From Monosiga brevicollis MX1 (Eukaryota; Opisthokonta; Choanoflagellata; Craspedida; Salpingoecidae), in contig NW_001865049.1 of the NCBI RefSeq assembly GCF_000002865.3, positions 896,568 to 960,567 on the forward strand: 64,000 nt of DNA, in the 5' to 3' direction. Each line of letters begins with the position of its first letter. The stretch's first letter is position 1. This document shows, piece after piece, positions 21,911 through 56,847 of this stretch. Both the position numbers and the translations under genes were made by a program. Under the pieces are notes generated by a model. The model ran no database searches, was not told the origin of the DNA, and saw nothing but the letters and a program-made list of their open reading frames with translations.

Positions 21911-24900
21911 CTAAACCTCAAAACCATCGTCTTCGTCAGAAGACAAATCGTTGGCTGACGGCGAAAATGGTGTGGATACCGAGTGTGCGCGCTGAATAAA
22001 GCTCAAGCGCTGGCGGCGATCACGCCACAAATCCCAAAGCGAGGATCGTGATGCAGGCCGCGTCGTAACACGTGAAGAATTGTTGTGAAACGTGGAACTT
22101 TCGTCAGCTTCCGCCACGCCCTCACTCCAAGGCCGACTCAGGGCCGGTGGCAGCACGGCATTTGGCCCACTGTTGTTCTCACCGGCGCCGTCATTCGTCT
22201 GACCATCCAAAAAGACATCATTCTCGCCACTGTTGGCCTCATCATAGACGGCAGCCCAATGCGTCTCACCGCTAGGCCGTTCAATTGGCTCTGCTAGCCC
22301 AAGGCGTCCATCACGCCCTACGACCGGCACGGGCTCGCCTCGGGCCACCTCATTGGCAAACAATGTGGACTTTCGGCGACTCCGGGCGCTGAAAGGACGT
22401 GGAGCGCCGCCTGCAGCAAAAGCAGCCATGGCGCTATCAAGCTCTTGAAACGCGGCGCGTTCGGGCGTGGCAAAGTCGGAGTAGCTCTCTCGCCCGTGCC
22501 CTTTGACGGGCACGGTGGAACCAAAGAGCCGATCCGGCGAGGTTTGCGGCAGGGCAGCACCATCATATGACTGTTGTCTGCTGGCCCTGGGAATGGCTTG
22601 AGCAATGGGCGTCGAGTGCGCCTCAGGGACCATGCCAGGCGCTTCTGCCACACTGACCGTCTGAGGCTCAGATGGACGCCGTGTAGATGTGGGTAGCTCT
22701 GCTGCCCACGCTCGTGCCACGGGCTCGGTCAAGCTCTCGGAAGCAGCTGGCAGAATTGTAGGACGTAGTGCTTTTCGCTTGGCATAGAGAGTGGCACTAC
22801 GACCACTATTGATGCTCAAGAAATCATCCACCATAACGCTTGTCGGTCGTTGGCGAGCATGGAAACGCTGCAGGCGATCCTCCAGCATTTGGCGGGCTTC
22901 GGCGCGACGGGCTTGCTGGCGCAGTGATTCGCTGGGCGCGCTGGCAGCCACCACATGTCGCAACGCAGGCCATAGACTGTGAGGTGCCGTTGTGTTTGTC
23001 GGCGATGGAGGTGACTCGGAGCTGACAGAGACTGGTAAAGATGAGCCCACTGTCGTTGATTGCGTGTTGCTACTCCATGCACGAACGCGGCCATGCAAGG
23101 GCTGTTTCGGTTGCTGCTGATGTTGATGCTGTTGCTGTTTTGCAAAGTTGGCACTTGCTCCTGAACTTGCAAAAACAGAACCCTCCTCATCGGATAAGCT
23201 CGAGGCATCCGATGGGATGAGCTCGCTGAAGCTGGCGCTTCGAATTTGAATCCGCTGCAAATTGGCTGGAATTGTCCGCTCCGCCTCGGCGCGTGCCCAG
23301 CCCCTGGCACCACTGGCTCTGAGTTCGAGCGAGGACACCGATGTCGTTGGCTGGTAATGCCGGCTGCGCCCCTGCAGGTGGCCTGGCATATCTGACTGAA
23401 CGGAGAGTGTGCGCGTTGTGGGCATTCGGGGGCGCGCAGCGTCGGAGGGCGCGGCCGGCCATGCACTTGCTGAAGGAGACAGCTCTGTGGCTAGCACGCT
23501 TGTGGGCTCTTGGGCTGATGTCGGTGGCGGCGGAATATTCAAGAAGGGTGGTACCAAACTGGCTGGCGACACGCCCACCTCGCTACCGCGTCGCTGTGTG
23601 GTTGAGAAATGGTGTGATGGCGAGGAAACAAAGGCAAGCTTGTTGTGCACCCGTACCGTGGAAGGCACCGCTAATGCTCGCTCTTCCGGCGCAGATGCAT
23701 CAGATCTTGCCAGAGTGCTATGATCCAGCACGTATGTTTCTTCGCGGCGGCGCCCTCGGGAATAGATCAATGCCACGATGACGGCAACCAAAAGCAGGAC
23801 TGCCAAGACAGAAACCACGGCAACCCAAATGACATTGCTGTCATCGTTGGCACCTTCCCTACTCGGATTGGGATCTGAAGTGCTGGCGCCGGTCCCAGTC
23901 AAAGTGTAGCCAAAACCGTCCAGCTGAGCGGCGCCTGCATCACTGACATACGACTCGACGTCCACCCCAGCCAAAATCTGGTCACCAAAGGTGGAGTAAC
24001 CGCGCACTGTAGTGGTACTTTGTGGGTCTGATTCGGACCGCGTGATACTCGTAACCACGGTTTGCACCACACTGCGCCGACCGGAGAGCGCGGCATTGAC
24101 AATGGCCGATACCGTATCTTCAACCTGCTGCCCAAATCCCTCGGGAACGTCCTCGAGTGCAACCCCAAAGTGAAGCTGAAAATAACGATCGTCTGCTAGA
24201 GATGTGTTGCTCATGATTGTCGTGTTGATGACTATGCTGTCTGACGTCGTGATTGCCTCCGTCGTGGTCGTGTCCGGCGTCGTAGTGTCTGCTGGCGTCG
24301 TAGTGTCTGCTGGCGTCGTAGTGTCTGCTGGCGTCGTAGTGTCGGTTGACGTCGTGTCCAGCGTCGTCGTGCCCGTGGCCGTCGTGCCCGCGGTCGTGGT
24401 CGTCGTGCCCGTGGTCGTCGTGCCCGTGGTCGTCGTGGCTTTGGAGCTCACTTCTGCAAAAGTCGTGCTCGATGAAGGCCTAGGGCTTGAGCTTGGTGAT
24501 GATGCAATTGTCGTATTGAGCGCGGATAGTGTGCTTGTGTCTGTCTCGGCCGTCGTACTTGTTGTCGTGACGCTCAAACTCGTGGTTGCTGGGCTCGCAC
24601 TTGTTGTGGTACGAACAGAGGTGGTAAGCTCGCCTGAGCCGCTGGCAGACGGCGTCGAAGTAGGAACTGTACTAAACGAAGTGCTTGCGGTGGTCCATGT
24701 GTCGTCGCCGCTGCCTGTATTCGAGTCTGTTGAGAGGACCGTGGTAGTATGGGGCGTTGTCGAGGAGGCCGATGTCGTTCGTGGCGTTGAATCAACGAAA
24801 GATGAGGTCGTGGCTGCAATCGTCGACGTAGGCGTTGTTGTGCCCGCTGCCGTGGTTGTCCCAGTTGATGACTTAGAAGAGCCCGTAGTGAGCTCAGTGG

Positions 24901-27900
24901 TTGTGGAGGGAAGCAAGGTTGTGGTCAGCACCTCCTCACCGCTACCCGACTGCTCCAGGGGCGTCGTGGTGGCCTGTGCTGTAGTTGGGTTGGACGATGT
25001 GACAGTATCGGGCGAGGTGGTCTCAGTCCTGGATGTTGAGGGTGCGCTAGAGGACGTGGTCGTGGGCAAGGTCGTAGCTGTCGAGAAAGAAGTGGAGCCA
25101 GGCACGAAGGGAGTGCTCGAACTGGTCAAAGTTGAGAGAATGGAGGTTGTGGATGCAGCACCGCTTCCATCTCCTGATGTCGATAGTTCTCCACTACCAA
25201 TCACAGTCGTGGTTGTTGGCACTGGAGATGTGGATGTGACACTTGTTGTTCGTGGCAGCATGGTTGTTGCTGTCGTTGTTGCTGTCGTCGTTGCTGTCGT
25301 CGTTGCTGTCGTCGTTGCTGTCGTCGTTGCTGTCGTTGCTGTCGTCGTTGCTGTCGTTGTTGTCGTTGCTGTCGTTGTTGCTGCCGTTGTTGCTGTCGTT
25401 GCTAGCGTCGTTGCTGGCGTCGTTAACATGGTGCCACTTCCGCTTTCGCCCTCGCCCTCGCCGTCGCCCGACGCAGTGGTACTTGCAGTCGAAACCAAGG
25501 ACGCACTTGCTGACTCCGATGGAGTCAGAGGCTGTGTCACGGTGGTCACGGCCAAAGTAGCTTGAGAGGTTGTTGGCATTGGCGTGCTTCGCAGTGTCGT
25601 CGATTGCAGGTCGGTATCCCCGCTACCGCTTTCTTCAGAATCGGTGGTCGACGCTGCGGTCCAGGCCCCCGTGGACGTGAGAGTGGTAGATGGCAGTAAA
25701 GTGGTTGGCGTTGTGAGCAGCACAGCTGACGCCGTGGTCGTTGTAACGTCTAAATCAGCCGTGACGGTGGTAGACTGCAGATTACCTTCGCCGCTACCTG
25801 AGGCCGCATCAGACGTCGAGGGGGGAGTTGTTGTGCTTGCCGTTACAACATATGCATCTGTGGTGGTTGCCGTCGTGACAACGGAGATTGGTGCAGCTGT
25901 GGTGGTCCTAGGAGCGGCCGACGTTGTAGGCGGAAGGGTTGAGGTTTGTTGGTCTGATTGAGTGGAAAGGCTTGTGGAAAAGATGGGCAGAGTCGACGTC
26001 CCTGACCCACTCTCACTAGTGGTGCTTGTCTGCCACATGGTGGTTGACGTAGACATGTCACCGCTTCCCTGACCACTGCCAGGGTCCTCAGTTTGCCCTT
26101 GGGTAGACGTCGTGGTTGTTGATGCGGAATCGCTCGAGCTCAGGCTTGTGCTTGCCGATGTCACAGTGGCAGTCGTGCTGCTGGCCGTCGATGAGGTGGC
26201 TGAGCTAGTCGTAAGCGTCGACACTCCCGCATCCCCGCTGCTGTCACCGCTTCCACTTTCATTTTCGTCCACCATCGACGTGGTCGGAACGCCCGTTGAC
26301 CCAACCAGCGTGCTAGTACTCTCCATCGGACTATGTGAAGTGGTAGCAGTTGGCATGGTGGTGGTAGGAAACGCTGGGGTCGGAACAGGACTGTTTGTTG
26401 TGGCTGGCAAAGAGGTCACGGCCTCGGTAGACGTGACAGCCGTTGTCGAGGTCATTGTTACATCACCACTACCAGCGTCAGTAGTCTCGCGGTTCGCAAT
26501 CGTCGTCGAAGTCCAAGCATGGTCACCACTGCCGTTGGCCCCACCGGTTGTGGTCGATGACGCCAAAGTGCTTGCTGTTACCACCGTTGAGGAGAAGTTC
26601 ATATCGCCGCTGCCTGCATCGGTGGGCGTCGTCGATGTTGTCAAGGGGCTAGATGAATAAGGGGTGGACAAGCCGTCGTCTCCACTACCAGTAACCGGCT
26701 CCGTCGAAATCGGCCCTGTCGAGCTTGAGACAGTGGAAAGCTGTTCGCCGCTGCCACCTGAGCCGGCGTCTGATGTCGCCACAGTCGATGAGGTTGGAGC
26801 GACAGTGTCGCTGACACTGCCATCTGCGGTCGTGCTCGCTGCTGGCGTGGTTTCGGACGTTTCCGTCACAACCGTTGTAGTCGTTCCAGCCGTCGACGTT
26901 GTCGGCGGCCCAACCGTGGGCACCGTGGCCCTGGTGGACGTTGTCGTAGCGTCATTGGTCGATGGGGCGGCTGTCGTACTCGTACTTGTGCTGTGTGCCG
27001 CTGTGCTCACTTCTGGGCTGTTACTCGGACTGACCGGGAGCGTGGAGGTTGACCCACTGCCTGCATCCGGTTCTGTCGTTGTCGCTGGCCCCAGAGTGGT
27101 CACCGGAGTCATCACCGGCGTCGTCACCGGCGTCGTCACCGGCGTTGTCACCAGAGTTGTCTCTTCCCTGCTACTTGTGGTTGAGGGCACGGTCGAACCC
27201 AAGCCGACATCGCCACTTCCCGAGCCAAAGTCCGAGGTGGAAGCTGATGTCACAAAACTCGAGGTTGTTCTCGCTGCGTCCGTGCTGGGTGCTGCTGAGG
27301 ATGAGGATACTAAAGTGGCTGTCGTCGGCAGCGCTGTGCGTGTGGGGCGTAGAGTTGCGGTTGAAGAAAGGCTGGCATCACCACTGCCTGCGCTGGTCGC
27401 TGCTGTTGTTGTTGTTGTTGTTGAAGTTGAAGTTGACGATAGGCCAGCATCGCCGCTACTTGTGTCCGAGCCTGTCGTCGTACTTGACATCGTGGTCGAC
27501 CTTTCCCCATTGCTCCGCGTGGTGCTTGGGGTTGTTGCATCCGTGGAAGGAGAGGAAGGCCCTGTTGAAGTCAATATTGTCGGGCTGACTGCATCGGTAC
27601 CACTGCTTGTACTTGTCTCAGTCGATACCGGCGCTGTGCTTGGTGACACACTGCCACCAGCACCGCTGCCGATGCTCGAAGTGACCTCTACTGTGCTCGC
27701 TGCAGGCAAACTCGTCGAGGAGAGCGAACCATCTCCACTTGCCGTGCTGCTCACACCTTGTGGCGCCGTGCTTGTCGTCACGATCAGAGGAGAGGTCGGC
27801 TTGGGAGTAATTGTTGAGGGTGTCGCACTCGCCGAGCCTGAGCTCGAAGCAGGTGTGCTTGGCGGTGTCGAGGACATGCTTGTTGTCCCGGGCGTCGTTG

Positions 27901-30900
27901 AGGCCACACCTGAAGTTGAGAAATGTGGCATAGAGGACGTCGGCTCTCTGCTTGCAGCCACAGTGGTTGAAGGCTGGGTAGTCGCAGCGCCCCGTGTTGT
28001 AGATGTCGTCGCTGGCAGATCGGAAACGAAAGATGTGGAGAACGCAGAAGTCGGTTCTGCCGTCGCCCCAACCGTGCTGTCGGTACTGCCTGACCCGACA
28101 CCAGATGAATCACTGCTGCTGGTGCTGGTCGCACTGCTACTTGCCTCGCTCATAGTTGAAAAAGAAGTCGTGGTTACTGCGAGTGTGGGCACTGTAGTTG
28201 CCAATACCGTGGTCGTGCTTTGATCCTCACCACTTCCCGGCCATGTCGTGGATGAAGTCAAGGTCGCTGACCCATCATCTTGCTGGGTCGACACGGATGT
28301 GAATGCTGAATTTGTGTGGCTGGCAGGGTGCGTGAAACTCGGAGGTTGCGTGCCAGTTTCCGATGCGGAAGTGGTTGCAGAAGAAAGAGTTCTGGTGCTG
28401 GTTGATGCAGTCATTGTGGTTGATGAGAGCCCCTCTCCGGAGGCGTCTGACCCTGTGGTAGTGCCGATGGTACTTGAAGAAGTTTGAGGAACAGAAGTCT
28501 GGACTAGAGTCGTAGATGTGGCATCGAGCCCACTACCATCATCCGTTTCGGGCGTGGTGGTAGCCTCAGGCGTGGTGGTAGCCTCGCGCGTGGGCATCGA
28601 GCTAGTTGAGGCAGGCAGGAGCGCAATGTTGTACAACGCGGCGTGGTGCAGCGTAACATTGGCATAGTAAGGCGAGCCCAAGGCGCTGGAACGCCCTCCC
28701 AAAACCAGCTGAACAAATCCGGGTCGATTAATATTGATCGAAGCCGTGGCCTCAAGCGTGCCATTCACGAAAAGGGTTAGCTGATGTTGAGCGTGATCGT
28801 ATGTCACGAGCACGGCATGGGGCTGTGCCAGAGGCAAACGAACACTGCTCCAGTGCACATCCTGGCTGACTGAGTCTCGCACGTAGAGTGCAGGAATGCC
28901 GTCGATCACGTAGAGAGCCACAACATCTGTCTGGCCATCAGAGAGCGCAAAGAGAGCCTGGTTTCCTGATACAGTTTGTGGGGTAAACACTAGATCCATG
29001 GCAAAGGAGAGGTAGGCATTTGAGGGTAAGGCAGTGGCCAGCTCGCCAGCGCCGGCTAGATACAGGCCCTGGCGAAACGATGAGTCCCATACGGCACCCG
29101 GCGGTGTAAGCAAGTGCAGATTTAGCCCGCTGCTGTCCAGGACTAAATTGCCCGAGGTCTGTTCAAAGCGCCACATCCCTGCCACTCGAGTGTCATTGAC
29201 AGAAACTGGAAAGTCGACAAACAGAGGAGTGGGAAGCTCTTGGGTTACGCGGGCTAGCGCAGCCACCGCAGGAGCTGAAATGGCTGTGTCGTAGAGGCGC
29301 ACGCCGTCCAGCAGGCCCTCATACGCAAGTGTGGTATCCCCATTGGGACGGCCACCAAGAGACAGAGTAGACCAAGCGGGGATCGCTGGCATGCTTCCCG
29401 TTGCCACAAGCTCGCCGTCCAGGAACAAGGTGACGGTGGTCCCGTTGATGCGAGCAGCGATGTGCTGCCAAGTATTTGCAGAAAGCTGGCGAGTGCTGAC
29501 GACGCTCGCAGCGATGGATCCCCCATCTGCGCTCATGCCAAGAACAAGATAGCCATAAACGATGCGGAGCTCAACAATAGCAATCTCGGCGTGGCTACCG
29601 CGCGAAAACGCGAGCAGACTGTGCGCCAGCAAAGCGGAAGGTTTGATCCAGAGAGTCATGGTGTATGCAGCCGGCAGAGGCTGGGGCACCAAAGATGCAC
29701 TCAAGGCTGTATTCGTGAGTTGCACGGCCCGCTGACCAGTCTGAGCATCGGTGGAGAAGGCAACACGTGCACGCTCCTTGAACGTTAGATGTGCAGGAGC
29801 GAGAGCTGTGTCAAAAGCGTAGCCTGTGATGTTATTTTCAAAGTCGTAGTGGTGCCACAGGTGATCATTCCAGGCAGAAATTTGGGCCAATTGCGTCTCA
29901 ATGCTCGGTGGGGCCGTAGTAGACAGAAGGTCCTCCAAAGTCGTGGCTGGCTCGGATGTTGAGATTGGTTCTGCAACCATGGCCGTCGTCTGGCTCGAGG
30001 ACATTGGCGCCACCGTAGTAGGATGTGCCGTTGAGGGCATGGTATTCGTCGCTACGGTTGCTGTTGTAGATGATGCTTCAGACGTGACGAGCTCGTTTGT
30101 TGTCGCCATCGTTGTCGGCACGGCCGTCGTTGTTGGTATGTCTGTCGTTGACGTTGGCTCGGCCGCCATCGTTGACTCGTCTGTCATTGACGTTGGCTCG
30201 GCCGTCGTCGTTGGCTCGTCTGTCATTGACGTTGGCTCGGCCGTCGTCGTTGGCTCGGCCGCCATCGTTGACTCGTCTGTCATTGACGTTGGCTCGGCCG
30301 TCGTCGTTGGCTTGGCCGTCGTCGTTGGCTCGTCTGCCGTTGTCGTTGGCTCGTCTGCCGTTGTCGTTGGCTCGGCCATCGTTGTTGACACGTCCGTCGT
30401 CGATGGTTTGGGCGTGAACATAGGCGTTGTCGTTTCGATTGAGGACATCTCCGTAGTCGTCAGCACTTTCTCTGTCGTGAAGACAGCAGGCGACTCGGTT
30501 GTGGTGGACCAGGACGAGTTGTAGACGAATATGTCATCCAGATACCCATGGAAACCATAGACGAGGGGCTCCAGCGGGCAGCAACCACCAAGCACTAGCG
30601 CATCAGGCGCCAGTGTGCCTTCGACGCTGCCTGATACGATGGCTTCGCCATCGATCGAGACGAGAAAGTTCAAGTTCGACTCGATCTGCTGCAGCTCCAA
30701 CTCCAGCTGATGCCATGTCCCATCGGCCAAATTACGATCTTCTGCCCCCGATATGGTGTTTGTAGCGCCGTTACGCGTTGTTGTGACGACGAGGCCACGC
30801 GTTGGAAGAAGGATGGCCACGCGCACAGCGCCGTCTACAGACAGCACATAGCTGGCATCGTTTGAGGAGGTAAGGAAACGAACACTCACACGCATGTACG

Positions 30901-31924
30901 TGTCTTCCGGGCTTGGCAACCAGATTGTGGGTGCAAACTGGCCCGTCAGATAAAGGAGGCCGTCGGCCGTGGCGAGCGCCCCTGGTTGGAGCAAGGCGTG
31001 CCTTTGATGGCCGCTTCGATCCAGGAGAAGGTTACCGCCATCACGGTCGACAGGCGCAAAGACGATTCGTCCAAACCAAGGCTGGGTGGGCGGCTCAGTG
31101 AACAGTCCTGGAGCTAGCCCGCGATCGGCGACCAAAAGTTGCACGTCGTTGTTGGTGAGGGCGGAATCCCAAATCCGAACATCATCGAGGAGGCCTGGAA
31201 AGACATAAGAAGATGCACCAGAGTTGCGGTCTAGGCGGCCACCCAGAAGAAGACGGTCGCAGTTGCGGGGAAGAGCCAGCTCGGTCTTGGAGGCCAGGGG
31301 CGCGCCATCGAGATATAAGGTCACCGTGCCCTGGTTGGCGGTCACGGCCAGATGGTGCCAACCATCGTCGTGGGCGGCCTCATCATCGCTTGCCGCGTCG
31401 GTGGGCCAGGCAGCAGAGATTGTTGCAGACTGCACGCCGGCAACGCCCTCGAGGGCGGTGATGTGCACTTGGACCAGGGTGTAGACAAAGCGGAGCTCCA
31501 TCATGGTATCTGCGATGCCGTCATCAAAGTGCACCAGGATTTCTGGCGCTGGCGCGGTGGACGTGGGGCGTTGTACCCAGGCAGCCCAGCTGAGTTGGGA
31601 GGCAGGGACGAGGGATGACGCATTGGTCCAAAACACCTGGGCGATGCCACGACGCGTAGCATTAAAGGCATAATTTCCCGAGGCCCCTGGGCCAACAGGC
31701 TCGGCGCGGTCGAGTGTGGGTTCAAATCCGACACAGCCACCATGCAGATTTTGCTGACCCGCCGAATCGAGTGCGAGGTGCAAGAAGGGGAAGGATTCCT
31801 CAAAGTCGTAACGAGCGAGCAGAGCCTCGGGCTGGGCTGGAGCCACCAACAGGGCCAGCAGGAGCAGGCAGGCATAGGCTGGGGCCAGGAGCCCGCCACC
31901 AGGCACCAGACAAGACTCTGGCAT
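21911..31924 (-). CDS. Giant LamG/mucin-like single-pass membrane protein
   Basis: One uninterrupted ORF of 3,337 residues. A signal peptide (residues about 10-32) precedes four laminin-G/concanavalin-like domains in two pairs: about 35-250, 285-475, 690-890 and 915-1095, each opening with a motif like YDFEESF or WRFEQTSGN. Between and after the pairs are Thr/Ser/Pro mucin tracts; the second runs from about 1100 to 2570 and carries roughly two dozen acidic Ser-Gly motifs such as DAGSGD or ESGSGD. A non-repetitive juxtamembrane domain (about 2575-2680) has no clear family. A single helix VIWVAVVSVLAVLLLVAVIV (about 2695) leads to a cytoplasmic tail of about 610 residues rich in Ser, Arg and Pro. 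Expected role: surface adhesion or a glycocalyx. The absence of introns over 10 kb is exceptional here. Confidence 0.9.
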   Translation of the reverse strand: MPESCLVPGGGLLAPAYACLLLLALLVAPAQPEALLARYDFEESFPFLHLALDSAGQQNLHGGCVGFEPTLDRAEPVGPGASGNYAFNATRRGIAQVFWTNASSLVPASQLSWAAWVQRPTSTAPAPEILVHFDDGIADTMMELRFVYTLVQVHITALEGVAGVQSATISAAWPTDAASDDEAAHDDGWHHLAVTANQGTVTLYLDGAPLASKTELALPRNCDRLLLGGRLDRNSGASSYVFPGLLDDVRIWDSALTNNDVQLLVADRGLAPGLFTEPPTQPWFGRIVFAPVDRDGGNLLLDRSGHQRHALLQPGALATADGLLYLTGQFAPTIWLPSPEDTYMRVSVRFLTSSNDASYVLSVDGAVRVAILLPTRGLVVTTTRNGATNTISGAEDRNLADGTWHQLELELQQIESNLNFLVSIDGEAIVSGSVEGTLAPDALVLGGCCPLEPLVYGFHGYLDDIFVYNSSWSTTTESPAVFTTEKVLTTTEMSSIETTTPMFTPKPSTTDVSTTMAEPTTTADEPTTTADEPTTTAKPTTTAEPTSMTDESTMAAEPTTTAEPTSMTDEPTTTAEPTSMTDESTMAAEPTSTTDIPTTTAVPTTMATTNELVTSEASSTTATVATNTMPSTAHPTTVAPMSSSQTTAMVAEPISTSEPATTLEDLLSTTAPPSIETQLAQISAWNDHLWHHYDFENNITGYAFDTALAPAHLTFKERARVAFSTDAQTGQRAVQLTNTALSASLVPQPLPAAYTMTLWIKPSALLAHSLLAFSRGSHAEIAIVELRIVYGYLVLGMSADGGSIAASVVSTRQLSANTWQHIAARINGTTVTLFLDGELVATGSMPAIPAWSTLSLGGRPNGDTTLAYEGLLDGVRLYDTAISAPAVAALARVTQELPTPLFVDFPVSVNDTRVAGMWRFEQTSGNLVLDSSGLNLHLLTPPGAVWDSSFRQGLYLAGAGELATALPSNAYLSFAMDLVFTPQTVSGNQALFALSDGQTDVVALYVIDGIPALYVRDSVSQDVHWSSVRLPLAQPHAVLVTYDHAQHQLTLFVNGTLEATASININRPGFVQLVLGGRSSALGSPYYANVTLHHAALYNIALLPASTSSMPTREATTTPEATTTPETDDGSGLDATSTTLVQTSVPQTSSSTIGTTTGSDASGEGLSSTTMTASTSTRTLSSATTSASETGTQPPSFTHPASHTNSAFTSVSTQQDDGSATLTSSTTWPGSGEDQSTTTVLATTVPTLAVTTTSFSTMSEASSSATSTSSSDSSGVGSGSTDSTVGATAEPTSAFSTSFVSDLPATTSTTRGAATTQPSTTVAASREPTSSMPHFSTSGVASTTPGTTSMSSTPPSTPASSSGSASATPSTITPKPTSPLIVTTSTAPQGVSSTASGDGSLSSTSLPAASTVEVTSSIGSGAGGSVSPSTAPVSTETSTSSGTDAVSPTILTSTGPSSPSTDATTPSTTRSNGERSTTMSSTTTGSDTSSGDAGLSSTSTSTTTTTTAATSAGSGDASLSSTATLRPTRTALPTTATLVSSSSAAPSTDAARTTSSFVTSASTSDFGSGSGDVGLGSTVPSTTSSREETTLVTTPVTTPVTTPVMTPVTTLGPATTTEPDAGSGSTSTLPVSPSNSPEVSTAAHSTSTSTTAAPSTNDATTTSTRATVPTVGPPTTSTAGTTTTVVTETSETTPAASTTADGSVSDTVAPTSSTVATSDAGSGGSGEQLSTVSSSTGPISTEPVTGSGDDGLSTPYSSSPLTTSTTPTDAGSGDMNFSSTVVTASTLASSTTTGGANGSGDHAWTSTTIANRETTDAGSGDVTMTSTTAVTSTEAVTSLPATTNSPVPTPAFPTTTMPTATTSHSPMESTSTLVGSTGVPTTSMVDENESGSGDSSGDAGVSTLTTSSATSSTASSTTATVTSASTSLSSSDSASTTTTSTQGQTEDPGSGQGSGDMSTSTTMWQTSTTSESGSGTSTLPIFSTSLSTQSDQQTSTLPPTTSAAPRTTTAAPISVVTTATTTDAYVVTASTTTPPSTSDAASGSGEGNLQSTTVTADLDVTTTTASAVLLTTPTTLLPSTTLTSTGAWTAASTTDSEESGSGDTDLQSTTLRSTPMPTTSQATLAVTTVTQPLTPSESASASLVSTASTTASGDGEGEGESGSGTMLTTPATTLATTATTAATTTATTTTTATTTATTATTTATTTATTTATTTATTTATTMLPRTTSVTSTSPVPTTTTVIGSGELSTSGDGSGAASTTSILSTLTSSSTPFVPGSTSFSTATTLPTTTSSSAPSTSRTETTSPDTVTSSNPTTAQATTTPLEQSGSGEEVLTTTLLPSTTTELTTGSSKSSTGTTTAAGTTTPTSTIAATTSSFVDSTPRTTSASSTTPHTTTVLSTDSNTGSGDDTWTTASTSFSTVPTSTPSASGSGELTTSVRTTTSASPATTSLSVTTTSTTAETDTSTLSALNTTIASSPSSSPRPSSSTTFAEVSSKATTTTGTTTTGTTTTTAGTTATGTTTLDTTSTDTTTPADTTTPADTTTPADTTTPDTTTTEAITTSDSIVINTTIMSNTSLADDRYFQLHFGVALEDVPEGFGQQVEDTVSAIVNAALSGRRSVVQTVVTSITRSESDPQSTTTVRGYSTFGDQILAGVDVESYVSDAGAAQLDGFGYTLTGTGASTSDPNPSREGANDDSNVIWVAVVSVLAVLLLVAVIVALIYSRGRRREETYVLDHSTLARSDASAPEERALAVPSTVRVHNKLAFVSSPSHHFSTTQRRGSEVGVSPASLVPPFLNIPPPPTSAQEPTSVLATELSPSASAWPAAPSDAARPRMPTTRTLSVQSDMPGHLQGRSRHYQPTTSVSSLELRASGARGWARAEAERTIPANLQRIQIRSASFSELIPSDASSLSDEEGSVFASSGASANFAKQQQHQHQQQPKQPLHGRVRAWSSNTQSTTVGSSLPVSVSSESPPSPTNTTAPHSLWPALRHVVAASAPSESLRQQARRAEARQMLEDRLQRFHARQRPTSVMVDDFLSINSGRSATLYAKRKALRPTILPAASESLTEPVARAWAAELPTSTRRPSEPQTVSVAEAPGMVPEAHSTPIAQAIPRASRQQSYDGAALPQTSPDRLFGSTVPVKGHGRESYSDFATPERAAFQELDSAMAAFAAGGAPRPFSARSRRKSTLFANEVARGEPVPVVGRDGRLGLAEPIERPSGETHWAAVYDEANSGENDVFLDGQTNDGAGENNSGPNAVLPPALSRPWSEGVAEADESSTFHNNSSRVTTRPASRSSLWDLWRDRRQRLSFIQRAHSVSTPFSPSANDLSSDEDDGFEV
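24250..25430 (-). repeat. Thr-rich coding microsatellites in the mucin tract
   Basis: Within the giant ORF, GTC/GTT/GTA-type triplet repeats on the plus strand (ACN on the coding strand) are densest at 24285-24435 and 25257-25425. They encode runs of Thr-Thr-Ala and Thr-Thr-Pro. Slippage here would change protein length without breaking frame. Confidence 0.8.
30100..30400 (-). repeat. Tandem repeat coding for Ala-Glu-Pro-Thr units
   Basis: Short repeats encode alternating AEPTTT, DEPTTT, AEPTSMTDE and TMAAEPT units between the two LamG pairs. Several copies are identical at the DNA level, which points to recent duplication. Confidence 0.85.
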
Positions 31925-33038
31925 GGTGGAAAGTTTGGTCTAGTGGGCGCGCCCAGAGACCCGACTCGAGGCGGGTGGAAGGAGTTATTGGGGAAGGAAG
32001 CCGGTGCAGAAGGGCATGATGGAGATGTGAATGGCTGCTAGTGGAACGCAAGAGGGGGCGGGACCGGGCGAGGTCAGCTCATGCCGGGTTGACTCGGGCC
32101 ACGCAGTGCACCTAGGTCGTGGGTGGTTCGATGGCTACGCGCAGCCCAGGAGCAGATTGCCTTGATGGCGCACGGGGGCCGATGGGCCTTACCAAAGACC
32201 AGAGCACCGGCAGTTCTCAAAGCTTGATTCTAGGCGCGATTGTGTGAGGCGCGATCTATAACAGCCGCGCAGGAAGGTGATCGACAACGCCTGTCAACTC
32301 GGGAGGAAGAGGCAGGAAGAAGCAAAACAAAACAGAAAAAAAAACGTGATGGCTGAGTGAGTAGGGTTTGTGTGTGCCTGTGTGGGCACTGCAACGACTG
32401 ATGGAAGTATGTGCCACCTCCCCTTTGAACGCGTGCTGTGGGAGCGCCTCGCTGCGTGTTTGAATGCATGTGTGCAGAGGAAGCGTCGTCCAAGGAGCGA
32501 AAACTCGATCGTACCTCACGTCATGTGGATGAAAGGTATTGAGCTGTGGTCGTGCACGTTGTTCAAGGACATGAATTGCATTCACAGTCATGGAGGTAAG
32601 AGAGCGGACAAGCGAGACCGAGGAAGAAGAAGAAGAGAGAGAGAGAGAGAGCGGGGGCGCGGGTAGAGAGGGAGCGGCGTACCCGGGGCAGAGCGGGAAA
32701 CGGAGCCCAGAGCAGGGTTGCAGAGCAGGGAATTGATCGCTCGTCGCACACACTTCAAGTGTCACGCGGCAGAGCAGAGGGGGGGTTAGAGGTTGAGTGA
32801 CGAACAGGTGTGTGAGGCAGAGATGTGGTAAAGGCTGTGCGTCGTGGGAAGGGCAATTGCAAGGCATAATCAGAGATACGAAGTAGATTGGGAGGGCAGA
32901 ATAGAGATGACGTGATCAGCAGAACAGAGCCGGAGCGTCGAACAGAGAAACAATCAACACAAAAGATTACTCGAGACCCGAGGAGACTGGGAGACTGGTT
33001 GATCTGCGTCATCGTTTATTTGTCAGATTGTCAGATTG
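31925..33038. other. Intergenic region, no gene seen
   Basis: About 1.1 kb upstream of the giant gene. It includes a GA run at about 32624-32652 and purine-rich DNA on both sides. An AATAAA on the minus strand at 33019-33014 probably ends the small gene next to it. No other exon is supported. Confidence 0.45.
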
Positions 33039-33713
33039 TCAGAATTTGATGCGAGCAGATGAAGTTGCGGGACGAGGCACCGTGCGCTGCGCTGCAGGCG
33101 GCGTTGAGGGACCATGATGAGCTTTTGGCAGCGAGGCGGGGGGTTTCTCTGGTGTGTACATGACAATGACATTGAGATCATCATCATCATCAGAGTCTGT
33201 CTGTGACTGTTTGCGTACACTTGCCGACAACAGCGCCATGCGTGTGAGGTCCTTGTGGAATGTGCGTCAGTGACGTTAGCGGACAAGTTCGCGGCCGCCA
33301 TCGAACCCATCTTGGATGGGACTGGCCTCGGTTGAGTGATATGTGCGCTGTGCACCCGTGGGGATGATCGCGTGCAAGTCGCCTTTCTTGTGCACATGAG
33401 ACAAACAGGGGAATCACCGGGTCACAAGTTTGCAAATTGCTGCTGAATGGCATGTTCAGCCTGCCACAAAACCCTCCAGCCCACAGCATTGCTGCTACTG
33501 GAACGGAACCTGTGAGTGACAGAGTATGCTTTGGAGAAGAACCCACAGATGTGCGCGATTGCCTCCTAGAGCATCGCAGCTCCTCAGCCACGACATGGTC
33601 AATATTCATGTAGTCTGGCAGCGCAAACTGCAGCACCACACAACCACACGATACCCACCGACACCAGCGTGACGGATGCTCACCGACGCCCTTTTGAATC
33701 GCAACGAGATCAT
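33039..33713 (-). CDS. Small unknown protein, three exons
   Basis: I do not recognise this protein. Exons, high to low: 33713-33684, 33627-33547, 33251-33039, all phase 0, giving 107 residues from the ATG at 33713. The middle exon reads FALPDYMNIDHVVAEELRCS, which looks like structured sequence. The last exon has a run of aspartates followed by LNVIVMYTPEKPP and a basic Pro/Ser/Thr tail. Support comes from the in-phase introns, the good donors (GTGAGC, GTGGGT) and the AATAAA signal at 33019-33014 just past the stop. It is head-to-head with the adhesion GPCR, 183 bp apart. The first exon is short and uncertain. Confidence 0.4.
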
Positions 33714-33896
33714 TTTTCTTAACCGGCCCGGGCTTCCCACCACCCGTTCCCTCAACCCGACTCCCCCTTTTTGGTGACCCCGCCGCCAAGCCACAACCAG
33801 ATGACAAATCGATGGGCACTGTTTACTGCGGTCACGCGAGCCAGCCTCGGGCCAACCCGTTGCCTCTGACTTGAAGCCGAAGCAATCCTCCCTGCC

Positions 33897-36800
33897 ATGG
33901 GCCTTCAACCTAGATTACCAGGCCGTCTGGCCGCGCTGGCGCTGCTGCTCGGCCTCCTGCTGGCCGTCGCTCGTGCCGCTGATTTTCCAACCAACTGTAC
34001 GAACGTTCCTCGTCGCCCCGAACCTCTTTCGACTTTCAGCCACCATACCATCGACCGACCGCTCACCTCACGACTTGAACCACCTGCCCCAACAGGGATC
34101 TTTTCCGGAGACACGGCCCTCCTTCCATCCACCAACGCCCAGCTACCTGATGCGGGATGGGAGCAAGCTCGTGACACCTGCGAAGGGCTAGGTGCCATCT
34201 TGGCGACCCTGGACGATGCCGCAGACCTCGAACTCGTGTCCAACCTTCTTGCCCCGCTTGGCCTCACCTCTACCAACCTCTGGCTGGGTAAGCCTACGCC
34301 AGACACCAGCAGTCCCAACCCTTTGCACACGCCTGGTGCCACATACTACACACGCACACACACACACACAAAGTAGCCACAATTAGAACTGGACGAGCGC
34401 GACCTCAGAGCGGCCTCTCTCACCCATCGGTGACTGCGCCTTTTTATTCTTTTTTTTTTTTTTTTTTTTTTTTTTTTGTAATAATTTTCATGGCCAAACT
34501 TTGCAGGCGGCCAGGGCACCGGCAGCCAAGCACCCTACACTTGGACCTGGTCCGACGGCTCGGGGCTCTCCGTGCTGACAGATCCCCTCTTTTCCCTCTT
34601 TTGCAACCCTTTGCCTCTGCCCTTGCTTTGCCCTCTTTTTGGCAGCCAGGACAGCGATGCTCGCTGCCTTGGTCTGCTGGGTGACATTCTTCAGCCGGCC
34701 ACCTGCGGCTCCCAGAAGCCCTTTCTCTGTCGTGCACCAGGTCTGTCCTTCCACACGCGACCCGACCTTGCTTTTTCCAAACCCCGACCAGTCTTCGCGC
34801 CAAGCTGCGCCATCAACATCGCTTGGACTCATCACAATTAACGCTCTGCACGGCTTTTGGCACCGCTTGCTCGCAGCAAACTTAATCCGAGATATATTGG
34901 CCTCCCTTACATGTGATGAGGGCTGTCCCGATGACGCCGACTGTATACTGGGCACCTGTGTCTGCCGAGCACCATTTTTTGAAAGTGATGGCCAAGGCGG
35001 ATGCCGAGCCCGTTGCGGCTCCAATGACCTCCTCAGCCTGTTGCTGCAAGTGCCGTGTGGTAATCATCGCGTAGGTAATCAAAGCCTCAGCTGTGCTGGC
35101 ACCGACCTCGTGCGTGACACAGCCGCGTGCCTCCTCGAGCCCGTCGAGCGCATCCTCGATCTGGCTCTCGAGGTGATTCCCCTCAACGACTGGCTCGAAG
35201 CCGCCGAAGCCCTGGCCTTCCCTCTGCTGGAGACCCTGACCGAGTCTGAGCTAAATGCGCTGGCTCAAATCTGGGATTTGCCCATCGTCTCGGCCGTGGG
35301 CTTGGACGACGCCGCCGTTGCCGTGCTTCGCGTCACCGCCAACCTCCTCAATCAAACGATGCTGGCCGCCTCGGAATCGGTTTTTCAACCCTTCCTCCTC
35401 CCCCTGGACCTGCCTCTCAAGAGCCTGATATACATCATCGAGCACACCCTCAACAGCCTCAGCAAGCTGCTTCTTGGTGAATACCTGTGGATTGAGTATG
35501 GCAATGGCTACATCCTCACTCAGTTTGCTCAAACGAGCATGTGGAACACCTCCACCTCCTGGCAAGTCTTGTACCCGGAACTCGACGGTGTCGTGCGTGC
35601 CGACGTGGTGCTGCCCTTTGAAGCCTTCCAGCTCGCACACCAGGCCTACCTCCTCACTCTGCCCAACGGTACCGAAGCTCCAGCCGCGGGTGAAGGCACC
35701 GACGAGGGTGACGGCCATGGCGAGGCTGCAGCCACCTGGATTCCCACGGCCACCATCATCTATTTCGAGGACGCCCGCATGTTTCCACTCTTGCCCACCC
35801 TAGCCAACTTTAGCATGAGCAATCACAGCATCACAACCAACAGCACCACCGGCACGAACAACACCATCAATGGTACCTCCCCGACGGCCAACGCCACAAG
35901 TGAGCCCGCCGTAGACTACTCGGCCCTCGAGCTCGTGCGCTCCCCAATTCTGAGCATCACGCTGATGGACCTGCCTGCGGACAGCGACCTCTCTGCCAGC
36001 CCCGTCAAAATGCACTTTACTGGCTTCAACTCATCAGATTTCTTCCCTATCTGTGCCTGGTGGGATGCCGGCCGCTGGAATACCTCGGGCTGCACCACCA
36101 TTGTCTTATCCGACCATGACATTGACTGTGTCTGCACCCATCTGACCTCCTTCGCCGTCCTGACGGGGGCCCCGACCACTGGCGCCTCACGCGGTGGTGG
36201 GCGAGGCGGTAGCACCGAGGACAAGATGGCCGAGGAAATCGGCGCTAGCGGCGGTGCGGATTCCACCACCGCGCTCTCGGCCGCAGAGGCCCGGGCCATG
36301 GGCGTGCTCAGCCTCGTGCTGGTATCCCTCTCAATGCTAGGTGCCATTGCTGCTCTGGCCGTGATTGTCTTTGGGTGGCATGCCGCGCGTCCCTACCATC
36401 ACAACCTCGTCCTCCTTTCCCTCGTCCTCCTTGGAGTCTATGTCCTCTTCTTCGTGGTCGCCCTCGCGGCGCCCAGTGACGACACCAATTGCACCGCCGT
36501 GGCCTGGCTCTTGCATTTTGCTGTTGTGCTGCTCATGTTTGCCTCAACGTGCCAGGCCTACCAATTCCGACAAGACTTTGTCGTGGTGTTTGCCAACACG
36601 CAGCGGACCGCAATCATGCGGCGCTTCGGTCTAGCCCTGGCCCTGGCCCTCGTTGTGTGCGGCCTATCGGCCGCCGTGGCGCCCAGGGACTACGGTTCAG
36701 ACCAAGCCTGCTTTCTGTCGCCGGGTGGCTTGGCCATTTGGTTTCTGTGGGGGCCTTGCGCTCTGGCCTTGTTGATCAACATTGTCATTTTTCTGGCCGT

Positions 36801-37341
36801 CCTGCAAAGCATCGCTCGTGAGTCGCGGGACGTGAGCCGCTCCAAGGCCATTTGGGTGGCCATGGGCGCCTTCCCCATTGCCCTCAGCCTGGGTTGGCTC
36901 CTTGCAGTCTGGCTCATCCTCTACCCATCCCTGACGGCCGAGGTGGCCTTTATCGTCGTCAATTGTCCCCAGGGCCTGCTTCTCTTCTTTGTCTTTGTCT
37001 TTCGCGACGACCGACTCTGGAAACAGGCCCGGCACCAACTTGTGCGCTGGTGGACTGATAGCGAGCACTCGTCTTCCCTACCTTACACAGAGAAACCACC
37101 CTCCTCCACAGGATCTACTCGCGTCAGTCGCGCGTCCACGCCGACGCTTCACACCGACGAGCAAGGCCCGCTGAGCCGCCGTTCCAGCGTCAGCAGTAGC
37201 GGAAGCCGCTTTGTCCTCACGCGTCCCCACTTTAAAAAGGGCCCCATGATGAGCATGATCTCTGAGGCCCGTTTGTACGAGTTGGACGATTCCGATGAAG
37301 AACATCAGGAAGTGCGCGTGTGCCAAGCCTACGATGTCTGA
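33897..37341 (+). CDS. Adhesion-type GPCR with N-terminal C-type lectin domain
   Basis: Exons: 33897-34287, 34507-34571, 34650-34740, 34877-37341, giving about 1003 residues. The intron 34572-34649 is inferred from a strong pyrimidine tract; it is 78 nt, so retention would add 26 in-frame residues. Signal peptide at residues 1-27. A C-type lectin-like domain spans about 70-183 (WEQARDTCEGLGAILATL, WTWSDGSG, DARCLG, PFLC). A small cysteine cluster (CPDDADCILGTCVC) follows, then an N-glycosylated GAIN-like region and a GPS at about 576-607: CAWWD, GC, CVC, then the cleavage site HLTSF. Seven membrane helices occupy about 655-890, and a Ser-rich tail follows. The GPS/7TM pair is class B2 adhesion GPCR; the lectin domain suggests glycan recognition. 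Confidence 0.88.
34450..34477. repeat. Poly-T tract in GPCR intron 1
   Basis: A T-run of about 28 bases. An AC-rich microsatellite at about 34348-34371 lies in the same intron. Confidence 0.9.
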
Positions 37342-38265
37342 CCAGCTCAAAAGTCTCGGCAATATCGCTGAGATTGCCGCAGGCGGAAGGGGAACCCTGC
37401 TTGCTGCCTGCGCTTTGAATAAATGTACTCATCATATCCTGTTCTGCTATCAAGAAATCGTCGAGCGCATCGTCGCTCTGTGTCGTCTCGCCGTTGTTTG
37501 TATCGCTTTGCTCTGCTTTTGACACGTGCTGATGAATGATATTATGCCCGGACATGTTCATGTGCCGAACCATCAAAGCACCTGTGTGCGCGCGCGAGAC
37601 GTGAACCAAGTTTACCGAAGCACCGCCGCCCTCAATACTTTTATGCAATTCATAGGAGAGTTGTGCTCTCAATCCCCAATTGATTCGATTTGTATTTGAC
37701 GAATGTGATTGAGCATCATTCGCATGCATGTCACTCCCGAATAAAAATGCCTCTAAAAAAATTATGCGTAAAAGTTTGTGAAACGCCAACAAACGGGGAT
37801 TGAACCGGATTCAAGGCGTCAAAGGCGCGGCATGCGCTTGCCCGTTAGAACGAGCCATAAAACTGACCTTTTCATTCACGAGGCTTACGGTGTTCAAGCT
37901 GCTCGTGGCAGAATCAGTGTTTAAAAGCGATTTAAAGACTTTGCAGAAAGTTTTCACTCAGGCTGAAATGAAATGGCAGAAGCAGACGAAGTTCGAGTTC
38001 ACAATTTATTTGGAATATTTTAGGATGGTTTTTATCGACATGTGGAGCAGCATAGATCTGATCTGATCTGATCAAAGTCGCAACAGTGGCCTTGGCAGAC
38101 TCCTTGCACACAGGCGCAGTACTTCAAATCAGAGCTTTCACATTGCCAGCGCTCCTGGCACACAATATCAACACAAGTAGAAGGGCAGCTAGCTCCAGTC
38201 TGGCGACTGTTACTCAATCGTGGCAGGTCGGCTCTCTCTCGACACACAACTCCATCTTGACATGC
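37342..38265. other. Convergent spacer, no gene seen
   Basis: About 920 bp between the GPCR stop (+) and the carrier stop (-). It is AT-rich, with an AATAAA at 37740-37745 that may end the GPCR transcript. A tRNA-like T-arm on the minus strand near 37790-37860 was checked and rejected. Confidence 0.5.
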
Positions 38266-54607: not shown

Positions 54608-55774
54608 TCAAGGGAGATGAATGGTGGCTGCGTCCTGCCACTGGAGGTGCTCAATCGAGTTGTTGGCGGTGAAGGAGAGCTGGCTCCAGTAGAGCAGGTC
54701 GTGATTGCGGGGGTGGCCTGGCTCAGCGGCCGTTACCCACTGATTACCGAGAAAGATGTACTGGTCGTCGTGGGACAGGGTTTCCGATCCCATGGAGGCG
54801 GCACGGGTGGGACTGGGGACGCGAAAAACGGCAGTGGGCTGGCTGCGGGTGACGTAGTTCCAGGGGGAGGCGGGATCAAAGGCATGGGTGGTGTTGCTGC
54901 CAAAGTCCCCGAGATAGGTGTAGGTGCTCAAGGGGTGCGAGGCAGCAAAGAGATAGATGGTGGAGCCACCCCGGCAGGCACAGCAGCCGGTGCCGGCAAT
55001 CATGTAGTAGGTGCCCTGGCGCTTGAACATGATGGGGGCTTCGGCGGCTTGCGGGGTGGAGAAGGTGGTAAAGTTGCCGGTGCTGGCCGTATAGTTGGCG
55101 GTGAGTTGCTCGACGACGAAGCCGGTGCGCACGTGATAGGCGATGCCGTCATCGTCAACGAAAATATCATAGTCGCCGATGCGGCCCGAGCCGGCCATGG
55201 CAACGTTTTCGGTGAGCGTGGTGAAGGGGCCCTGGGGGGTCTCGCTAACGGCCACGGCGTACATGCTGGCACCGCCGATGATGCGGCTCTCATACCACAT
55301 GACAAAGCGGGCGTCGCGGGCGTTGTAAACGACGTGGGGGCGAAACTCGATGCGGGGTTCGGGGCGAGCTGAGGTGGGAAGGGCGACACCGAGGTAGGTG
55401 AAGTTGGCAAAGTCCTGCGTGGCGTAGACGACGACCGTGTGGTTGGCCGTGTAGACGCAGGGATCCGTGTAGGGGCGGGCGGTGAAGCAGCAGGTGGCAC
55501 AGTTGCCGGTGGCGCAGCAGTCAACGCCCGGGCACCCGCCCCAATTGTTGAAATAGAAATAGTAGGTGCCCTCATGTTCGAGGACGTCGGCTTCGCCCGT
55601 GAGCAGGCGCTGACCCAGCTGATCGCGCGGCAGCGCGGTGTTGGACACGTTGACCGCGCGCAACGCGTTGGCCCCAATCGCGGCACCCCCCATGCTTCCA
55701 ATCATCTGCACCCATACCAGTGTCACGAGGACGCAAGCCAAGCCGCACAGCGGCTGCCCCCGTGCACCCACCAT
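54608..55774 (-). CDS. Secreted GH43-like glycoside hydrolase
   Basis: Single exon; 388 residues from the ATG at 55774, chosen because it starts a good signal peptide (CGLACVLVTLVWVQMIGSM). The open frame extends further upstream without an ATG. The body is a five-bladed beta-propeller type enzyme of glycoside hydrolase family 43: TGEADVLEHEGTYYFYFNNW near the start, YDIFVDDDGIAYHV in the middle and AEAPIMFKRQGTYYMIAGTG. These give the expected Asp, Asp and Glu catalytic positions. A cysteine cluster CPGVDCC..CATCC is typical of a eukaryotic GH43 group. The substrate is probably an arabinan- or galactan-type polysaccharide, from algae or bacterial prey; this is an inference. Several N-glycosylation sites fit secretion. 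Confidence 0.82.
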   Translation of the reverse strand: MVGARGQPLCGLACVLVTLVWVQMIGSMGGAAIGANALRAVNVSNTALPRDQLGQRLLTGEADVLEHEGTYYFYFNNWGGCPGVDCCATGNCATCCFTARPYTDPCVYTANHTVVVYATQDFANFTYLGVALPTSARPEPRIEFRPHVVYNARDARFVMWYESRIIGGASMYAVAVSETPQGPFTTLTENVAMAGSGRIGDYDIFVDDDGIAYHVRTGFVVEQLTANYTASTGNFTTFSTPQAAEAPIMFKRQGTYYMIAGTGCCACRGGSTIYLFAASHPLSTYTYLGDFGSNTTHAFDPASPWNYVTRSQPTAVFRVPSPTRAASMGSETLSHDDQYIFLGNQWVTAAEPGHPRNHDLLYWSQLSFTANNSIEHLQWQDAATIHLP

Positions 55775-56847
55775 CACTGCGCTGTCCTGCGCGTCGCTGC
55801 CGTCGATGAGAGAGCGCTCACGGCCCACAGCGATCGTGCACACGAATGCAGTGACGATATGGGCGAGACAGCACGCTAAATGTCAGATGAAATGAAGCGG
55901 ACGTGTACAACTGCTGTTGTGGCGCTTGATGGGGGCATCGTGATCAAGCAGGTGCGCAGAAGCTTGACGCCATCAACCTTTGGGCTTTCGTCATTGAATA
56001 AGAATAGGGAGAAAAATACCTGCACCCCCATACAATCAACGTCATAGCGTCGAGCAGTTGACGTTGGACGACCGGGTTTAAGCTTGTTCGCCCTTTGAGT
56101 CATCCTCCAACCTCCAACGTCATCACTTCCTTTGGTTCTCTTTTGTTCTCCCGCTGTGATGGTGATCGTCATCTACTAAAGCAAAGCCAATAAGGTGAAG
56201 ATTATTGAGATTATTTGGACGTTGACGAGAGATGAGAGACGAGAGATGAGAGAGACAGAGAGAGAGAGAGAGGGATGAGAGAGATAAAGAAAGTTTTTGA
56301 GAGAGAGAGGGATAAAGAGAGTTTTTTAGAGAGAGGGATACAAAGGGAGAGAGAGAACGTGGCGGTGGCATTTTACTCCTCATTGTTGGTACGTGTACCA
56401 CATCCTTCCCCCCTTCTTGCTCTCTCTCTCTCTCTCTCTTGCTCTCTCTCTCTCTTGCTCTCTCTCTCTCTCTCTCTCTTGACTACCTGATGGATATGGC
56501 AGCCAGATGGAGGCAGGGGGTGCTGTTGTTGTTGTTACTGTTGGTGTGATGTGCATGGGAGGGGGGAAGACGGATGTTCGCTTTGTGGGCGCTTTGCGTG
56601 TGTGTTTGGGGGTGGATGTACTTGACGCGCCTGTCGTCTGGTGTGCCGTGGCGTGGCGTGGCGTTGCACGCTCTATGATGTTGGCCTGATGTTGGCCTGA
56701 CCTGTGGTGGGCAACTCGGGGCATATGCGTCCGGTTATTTCATCTCACCATCACCCTGCATTTGCCTTACGGCGACCTCGTTTGTGCGTGTGTAGTTGTT
56801 GTCAAGTTCCATCAGGTTTCTTTTCCTTCTTCCCCAAAGTCGCCATC
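55775..56847. other. Divergent intergenic region with GA/CT repeats
   Basis: About 1.07 kb. GA-type repeats at about 56223-56352 are followed by CT repeats at about 56418-56482, so one strand could fold back on itself. No exon supported. The part near 56760-56845 may hold the 5' leader of the NDUFA4-like gene. Confidence 0.5.
56223..56482. repeat. (GA)n then (CT)n microsatellites
   Basis: GAGAGAGG units interrupted by AAAGA and TTTTTGAG on the left, CTCTCTCTTG units on the right, about 65 bp apart. Confidence 0.85.

Follow-up and report, generated by a model that had tools for sequence, protein, structure and literature searches.

Monosiga brevicollis, a choanoflagellate, probably possesses an adhesion G protein-coupled receptor (GPCR) that carries a C-type lectin-like domain (CTLD). 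Its gene lies at positions 33897-37341 of the forward strand of the window, by which we mean the whole stretch of 64,000 nucleotides analysed here (contig C46:896568-960567 of an assembly of 39.47 Mb in 57 contigs). In agreement with a unicellular host, a stop-free exon of a Sec1/Munc18 gene elsewhere in this assembly is identical over 44 residues to chain A (UNC18) of PDB 2XHE, the Munc18-syntaxin complex of M. brevicollis (PMC3693963, excerpt), which points to this species or a very close one. The predicted protein comprises, in this order, a signal peptide, the CTLD, an EGF-like patch, a GAIN/GPS region, seven helices, and a Ser-rich tail, and it probably works by the tethered-agonist mechanism on a non-canonical ligand. 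The combination of an adhesion GPCR with a CTLD in a unicellular organism had been proposed in a sequence-only reading of this DNA, and it was borne out: Lectin_C, GPS, and 7tm_2 all match above their cut-offs, and adhesion GPCRs are matched in the PDB. The order of the domains in one open spliced frame, the cleavage motif, the tethered-agonist motif, and the hydrophobic helices can be read directly from the sequence.

Such a protein is not a new class, as both halves and their combination are known in animals, and choanoflagellate adhesion GPCRs with varied ectodomains have already been catalogued. The predicted protein adds a member to this known kind of receptor from the choanoflagellates, a lineage for which no describing text was found. 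It would carry into a unicellular lineage a domain combination that has been called all but exclusive to placozoans.

Gene structure

The receptor gene begins at ATG 33897, upstream of which there is an in-frame stop codon, and ends with the stop codon 37339-37341; the same start and end had been given, to the nucleotide, in the sequence-only reading. The spliced model (33897-34287, 34507-34740, and 34877-37341) has two GT-AG introns and encodes 1029 residues without an inner stop (Table 1). The receptor is encoded in another frame than the lectin, which requires an intron behind the last cysteine of the CTLD; among introns of 40 bp or more, two with GT-AG ends would restore the frame there (34741-34804 and 34741-34876).

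Exons were predicted with a home-made gene finder, whose codon model, background model, and splice matrices were learned from its own predictions, and some of whose parameters were hand-set and ad hoc. Run 1 used the window and nine further loci, with splice priors that were mild, and yielded 139 introns. In runs 2 and 3 the region of the receptor gene was held out of training; flat priors gave 133 introns, and a prior on the acceptor alone gave 137. In all three runs, exons 33897-34287 and 34507-34740 were joined to the exon encoding the seven helices (7TM exon), and the acceptor of intron 2 was placed at 34876 in two runs and at 34804 in one. Codon scores, for which exon 3 itself served as the standard and which are noisy in short windows, are exon-like in the lectin frame through 34740 and lie below zero in all three frames over 34741-34876, as in intron 1. 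By these predictions, a structure with two introns (34288-34506 and 34741-34876) is the most likely one; the third of the introns 1-3 in the sequence-only reading was not recovered, every run giving three exons and two introns.

Table 1. Predicted features of the M. brevicollis receptor gene (positions in the window).
Feature	Position	Strand	Basis
Exon 1: start codon, signal-like leader, first part of CTLD (residue 87 on, 34155)	33897-34287	+	Translation; called in 3/3 gene-finder runs
Signal-like leader, residues 1-27 by eye	33897-33977	+	Hydrophobic N-terminus
Intron 1, 219 bp, GTAAGC..TTGCAG	34288-34506	+	Gene finder; donor near median of 139 predicted donors
Exon 2: remainder of CTLD (to residue 205, about 34730) with C184, C197, C205	34507-34740	+	Pfam Lectin_C 87-205; gene finder
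Leu/Pro-rich long loop in exon 2	34572-34649	+	Frame-0 codon score; 0/3 runs place an intron there
Intron 2, 136 bp, GTCTGT..TCGCAG; joins lectin frame to 7TM frame	34741-34876	+	In-frame GT-AG bridge; gene finder
Exon 3: EGF-like patch, GAIN/GPS, seven helices, cytoplasmic tail, stop	34877-37341	+	Translation, Pfam, gene finder
Six-cysteine EGF/EB-like patch: C221, C225, C231, C236, C238, C251	34912-35004	+	Cysteine spacing; Pfam EB below cut-off
Presumed GAIN domain	35104-36162	+	Sequence support over last ~80 residues only
GPS motif; cleavage expected between L631 and T632 (36144/36145), then TSFAVLTG	36046-36162	+	Pfam, genome search
Seven transmembrane helices, secretin/adhesion class; 7tm_2 match 36319-36978	36280-37008	+	Pfam, hydrophobicity, PDB matches
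AATAAA polyadenylation-like signal	37418-37423	+	First of two AATAAA/ATTAAA in 33000-38200 (other at 37740)

Alternative gene models

Two other gene models were weighed against this one. In the first, exons 1 and 2 would encode a small secreted C-type lectin-like protein ending at the stop at 34841, and a separate adhesion GPCR gene would start at ATG 34657, in another frame than the lectin, with the signal-like peptide MLAALVCWVTFFSRPPAA. Frame 0 can indeed run on to a stop at 34839-34841, the 7TM frame has no stop as far upstream as 34579, and the peptide encoded from ATG 34657 begins with hydrophobic residues; the only other ATG of the receptor frame up to 35500 is at 35359 (residue 370, inside exon 3). 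However, the surroundings of ATG 34657 score as non-coding in the receptor frame, and over 34650-34740 the codon score is -0.10 in the 7TM frame vs +0.15 in the lectin frame. The intron-like scores of 34741-34876 also speak against two genes, as do the prediction of a single gene in each of the three runs and the lack of any AATAAA or ATTAAA between the exons of the two parts. A split into two genes is disfavoured by the codon scores and appears very unlikely; together with the splice scores, these codon statistics favour one gene.

The other model retains one gene and places a third intron inside the CTLD, which would remove 26 residues and give a form of 1003 residues. Its position (34572-34649) is presumed, the sequence-only reading having given no intron coordinates, although the residues 60-183 that it named for the lectin fold fit the 1003-residue form. 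The segment is 74% pyrimidine, a value matched by only 0.9% of the windows of exon 3, ends in good acceptors (3.3-3.6 bits), has a length that is a multiple of three, and encodes an unusually hydrophobic peptide, and the Lectin_C score is equal with or without it (28.7 vs 28.6 bits). Its donor (TCC/GTGCTG, 34572), on the other hand, scores about -5 to -5.5 bits, lower than every donor learned in the three runs, and lacks the G at +5 that is present in 77-85% of them. Both 34572-34649 and 34650-34740 are exon-like in frame 0 only, removal of the segment shortens the Lectin_C match to profile positions 4-79, and a profile built from 12 CTLDs of the same genome gives 37.0 bits without the loop vs 38.8 with it. 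An alternative donor at 34550 scores higher (0.1-0.8 bits), yet its use would remove the WSDGS core from the domain. A third intron at 34572-34649 is therefore disfavoured by its donor score, though the pyrimidine richness points the opposite way; we regard the three-intron form as unlikely, and keep some weight for it because of the pyrimidine richness, the hydrophobic peptide, and the unchanged Pfam score. Comparison of the long loop with loops of other CTLDs of the genome gave no significant likeness: the score with L010 was reached by 365 of 2000 shuffles, and the scores with L009 and L005 were reached or passed by all 2000.

The C-type lectin-like domain

In the 1029-residue protein of the two-intron model, Pfam Lectin_C matches residues 87-205 over profile positions 4-105 of 107 (E 2.4e-6, 28.7 bits, cut-off 22.6), so that the PF00059 match looked for in the N-terminus is present above the cut-off. 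In a six-frame search of the whole 39.5-Mb assembly, exon 1 alone gave a match below the cut-off (18.8 bits, E 0.067). The four canonical cysteines of the fold are present (C95, C184, C197, and C205), as is the canonical CTLD motif known as WIGL, here in the form NLWLGG, and the domain has a WLGG/WSDG core. PDB matches of the CTLD included the yolk sac IgY receptor, LY75, the PLA2 receptor, the mannose receptor, LOX-1, and codakine; most of them are confined to its first half, and the top-scoring ones add up numerous repeats within chains that have several CTLDs. Among matches significant over one stretch alone, codakine ranks first (E 4.3e-5).

Two further CTLDs of the genome, L009 and L010, contain six cysteines; the additional two sit in the loop that precedes the EPN/EPS position, like C163 and C172 of the CTLD in the window.

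Behind the CTLD, the six-cysteine patch gives a Pfam EB match that is suggestive only, at 16.3 bits (E 0.011), under the cut-off of 24.3. The order of a CTLD followed by an EGF-like module is like that in selectins.

The receptor part

On the spliced protein, GPS (E 2.9e-11, 44.1 bits, cut-off 22.5) and 7tm_2 (E 7.2e-9, 35.7 bits, cut-off 20.6) both exceed their curated Pfam cut-offs (the sequence-only reading had named PF01825 and PF00002 as profiles to search with), and the six-frame family search of the assembly found both at the same places, again above cut-off. The cleavage motif CVCTHLTSFAVL is intact (CVCTHL/TSFAVL, the slash marking the cleavage site). The GPS reads CVCTHLTSFAVLTG and resembles, except for its last letter, the tethered-agonist consensus TxFAVLM quoted in an excerpt of PMC12716839. 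No GAIN family was reported by Pfam at E<=10, and chains of the PDB that contain a GAIN domain align with roughly the 80 residues preceding the cleavage site (ADGRL3, 6vhh, E 0.0014; ADGRB3, 4dlo, E 0.0027). Of the GAIN/GPS region proposed earlier, the GPS with its intact HL/T site was thus recovered above cut-off, and the presumed GAIN domain is supported by sequence over its last ~80 residues only.

Ten overlapping hydrophobic windows at residues 673-919, grouped by hand, give seven helices, the number predicted before. The leader and the stretches 157-176 and 343-363 also pass the hydrophobicity threshold; the former, residues 1-27 by eye, corresponds to the signal peptide noted earlier. 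Behind this signal-like leader there is a long extracellular N-terminus with the added CTLD, and 13 N-glycosylation sequons precede the cleavage site. When the 820-residue product of exon 3 was compared with the PDB by phmmer, 34 sequences were found at E<=10, the first 21 of which are adhesion GPCRs, with ADGRL2 (9e51, E 8.4e-14) at the top.

A CTLD together with a GAIN domain might also indicate a protein like polycystin-1, with eleven helices instead of seven. Polycystin-1 has a C-type lectin domain. It too has a GAIN domain, according to literature used in excerpt. Yet 7tm_2 matches above the cut-off, the helices number seven, the nearest solved sequences are adhesion GPCRs, and PKD, REJ, and PLAT are not among the five families that Pfam reported at E<=10. 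A polycystin-like protein is contradicted by the 7tm_2 match and the adhesion-GPCR matches in the PDB, and is extremely improbable.

Ligand and proposed mechanism

Calcium-dependent sugar-binding C-type lectins carry EPN or QPD together with WND. Neither EPN/QPD nor WND is present in the CTLD of the window in either splice model, and the direct sensing of glycans by the ectodomain, as suggested in the sequence-only reading, finds no support in the canonical residues. For comparison, 12 of the 18 other Lectin_C matches of the genome were inspected for these motifs: EPN and WND occur in three, a relaxed first motif with WND in five (the three with EPN and two more with QPT or QPN), and neither motif in five, so a CTLD without a sugar site is not unusual in M. 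brevicollis. Since EPN/QPD and WND are missing, the term 'lectin' should read 'lectin-like', and the ligand is probably not a sugar of the mannose or galactose type bound at calcium site 2. Going by its residues, the domain is more likely to contact a protein, a lipid, or a glycan in a calcium-independent manner.

It is conceivable, if doubtful, that the CTLD still binds glycans through a calcium-independent or non-canonical surface, in which case the glycan-sensing idea would be right in outcome. Some CTLDs without the classic motif, such as Dectin-1, bind glycans, and Dectin-1 chains are among the weak PDB matches of the domain (E 0.03). According to an excerpt of PMC8592570, exposure of M. 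brevicollis to Pseudomonas aeruginosa induces a C-type lectin gene, which may or may not be that of the receptor. Against this stands the residue-level evidence, none of which is positive for glycan binding, both sugar motifs being absent.

For the adhesion GPCR with a non-canonical ligand, the following mechanism can be envisaged. By analogy with animal adhesion GPCRs, the protein would cleave itself at the HL/T site. The lectin-like head on the N-terminal fragment may bind something on prey bacteria, the substrate, or another cell, and pulling or shedding of this fragment would expose TSFAVLTG, which, if animal receptors are a guide, would activate the seven-helix part and thereby G-protein signalling. 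M. brevicollis feeds on bacteria. It also responds to P. aeruginosa (PMC8592570, excerpt), and a lectin-type head on a GPCR body is a concrete candidate surface receptor for the bacterial response that can be knocked out or assayed.

Relatives in the genome

The six-frame searches gave at least 19 Lectin_C matches (of which 18 exceed the cut-off and the remaining one is exon 1 of the receptor gene), at least 10 GPS matches (7 above cut-off), and at least four 7tm_2 matches (all above cut-off); these counts are lower bounds because such searches see single exons and score the best candidates only. An intron-split CTLD could be missed in this way, as that of the receptor gene nearly was. In these six-frame searches, the other 18 Lectin_C matches are all more than 100 kb away from any GPS or 7tm_2 match, which leaves the receptor gene as the only CTLD match near either.

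Judged by the receptor part, the closest paralog is on contig C38 (30% identity, E 8e-31), with a beta-helix frame upstream. In the scanned frames of the other three 7tm_2 genes, which cover part of their exons, no CTLD was found; these genes have a beta-helix (L032), EGF/TSP1-like modules (L034), or only GPS and 7tm_2 (two frames of L033). The frame L034:5925-9500 is adhesion-GPCR-like and combines EGF, GPS, and 7tm_2 with a TSP1-like match that stays under its cut-off. Two very long GPS-bearing frames with Calx-beta repeats, one of 2170 residues (L041:1183-7692) and one of 4861 residues (L042:271-9999 with L043:3-4853), are reminiscent of the ADGRV type, and no 7tm_2 match was found in the GPS/Calx-beta frames of L041, L042, and L043.

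Comparison with known receptors

In Trichoplax sp. H2, 28 of 36 placozoan CTLD receptors are secretin/adhesion GPCRs, and the combination is called unique except for one amphioxus receptor (PMC6321704, excerpt). The M. brevicollis protein shares with these receptors a C-type lectin-like ectodomain on a seven-helix receptor of the secretin/adhesion family, but they form a large family in an animal, whereas one gene was found in the choanoflagellate. The adhesion GPCR of amphioxus, a chordate, likewise has a CTLD in its N-terminus (Lectin C-type domain; PMC2246102, excerpt), in its case alongside other ectodomains (PMC6321704, excerpt). That the fusion predates animals, the placozoan expansion and the choanoflagellate gene both descending from one ancestral receptor that linked G-protein signalling to the recognition of microbes or prey and that most animals have since lost or replaced, is a speculative and decidedly unlikely scenario.

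The lectin module of latrophilins is of the rhamnose-binding-lectin type, another fold than the CTLD. Latrophilin/ADGRL nevertheless resembles our protein in being an adhesion GPCR with a lectin-like module (for the RBL domain, see PMC2430599). Among choanoflagellate proteins, Rosetteless of Salpingoeca rosetta shares a CTLD with four conserved cysteines, but has two CTLDs that keep the Glu-Pro-Asn motif, together with a signal peptide and Ser/Thr-rich stretches, and the excerpted text makes no mention of a GPCR (PMC4381721).

The choanoflagellate catalogue, with 329 adhesion GPCRs in its tree and M. brevicollis among its species, describes the same plan of GAIN/GPS/tethered agonist and seven helices with varied ectodomains (PMC12716839, excerpt). 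The words 'lectin', 'CLECT', and 'CTLD' are absent from its main text, and the gene may well be listed in the supplements; as our literature search covered the texts of papers, we do not claim that it is unlisted. Within this scope, no text naming a choanoflagellate adhesion GPCR with a CTLD was found. The earlier description of two M. brevicollis adhesion GPCRs is reportedly that of Nordstrom 2009. An excerpt of PMC3251606 attributes two such receptors to earlier work by the same group, and the part used of a 2026 review (PMC13197933) names no C-type lectin.

Neighbouring frames

On the reverse strand, an open frame of 3342 codons (21911-31939) contains three Laminin_G_3 stretches (Pfam E 2.6e-39) and probably encodes a giant surface or matrix protein. 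This frame and the receptor gene are about 2 kb apart and arranged head-to-head. Further along the window are a reverse-strand frame with a match to glycosyl hydrolase family 43 (54608-55882, Pfam E 6e-10) and a forward-strand SLX1-like frame with GIY-YIG and SLX1_C (58166-59380).
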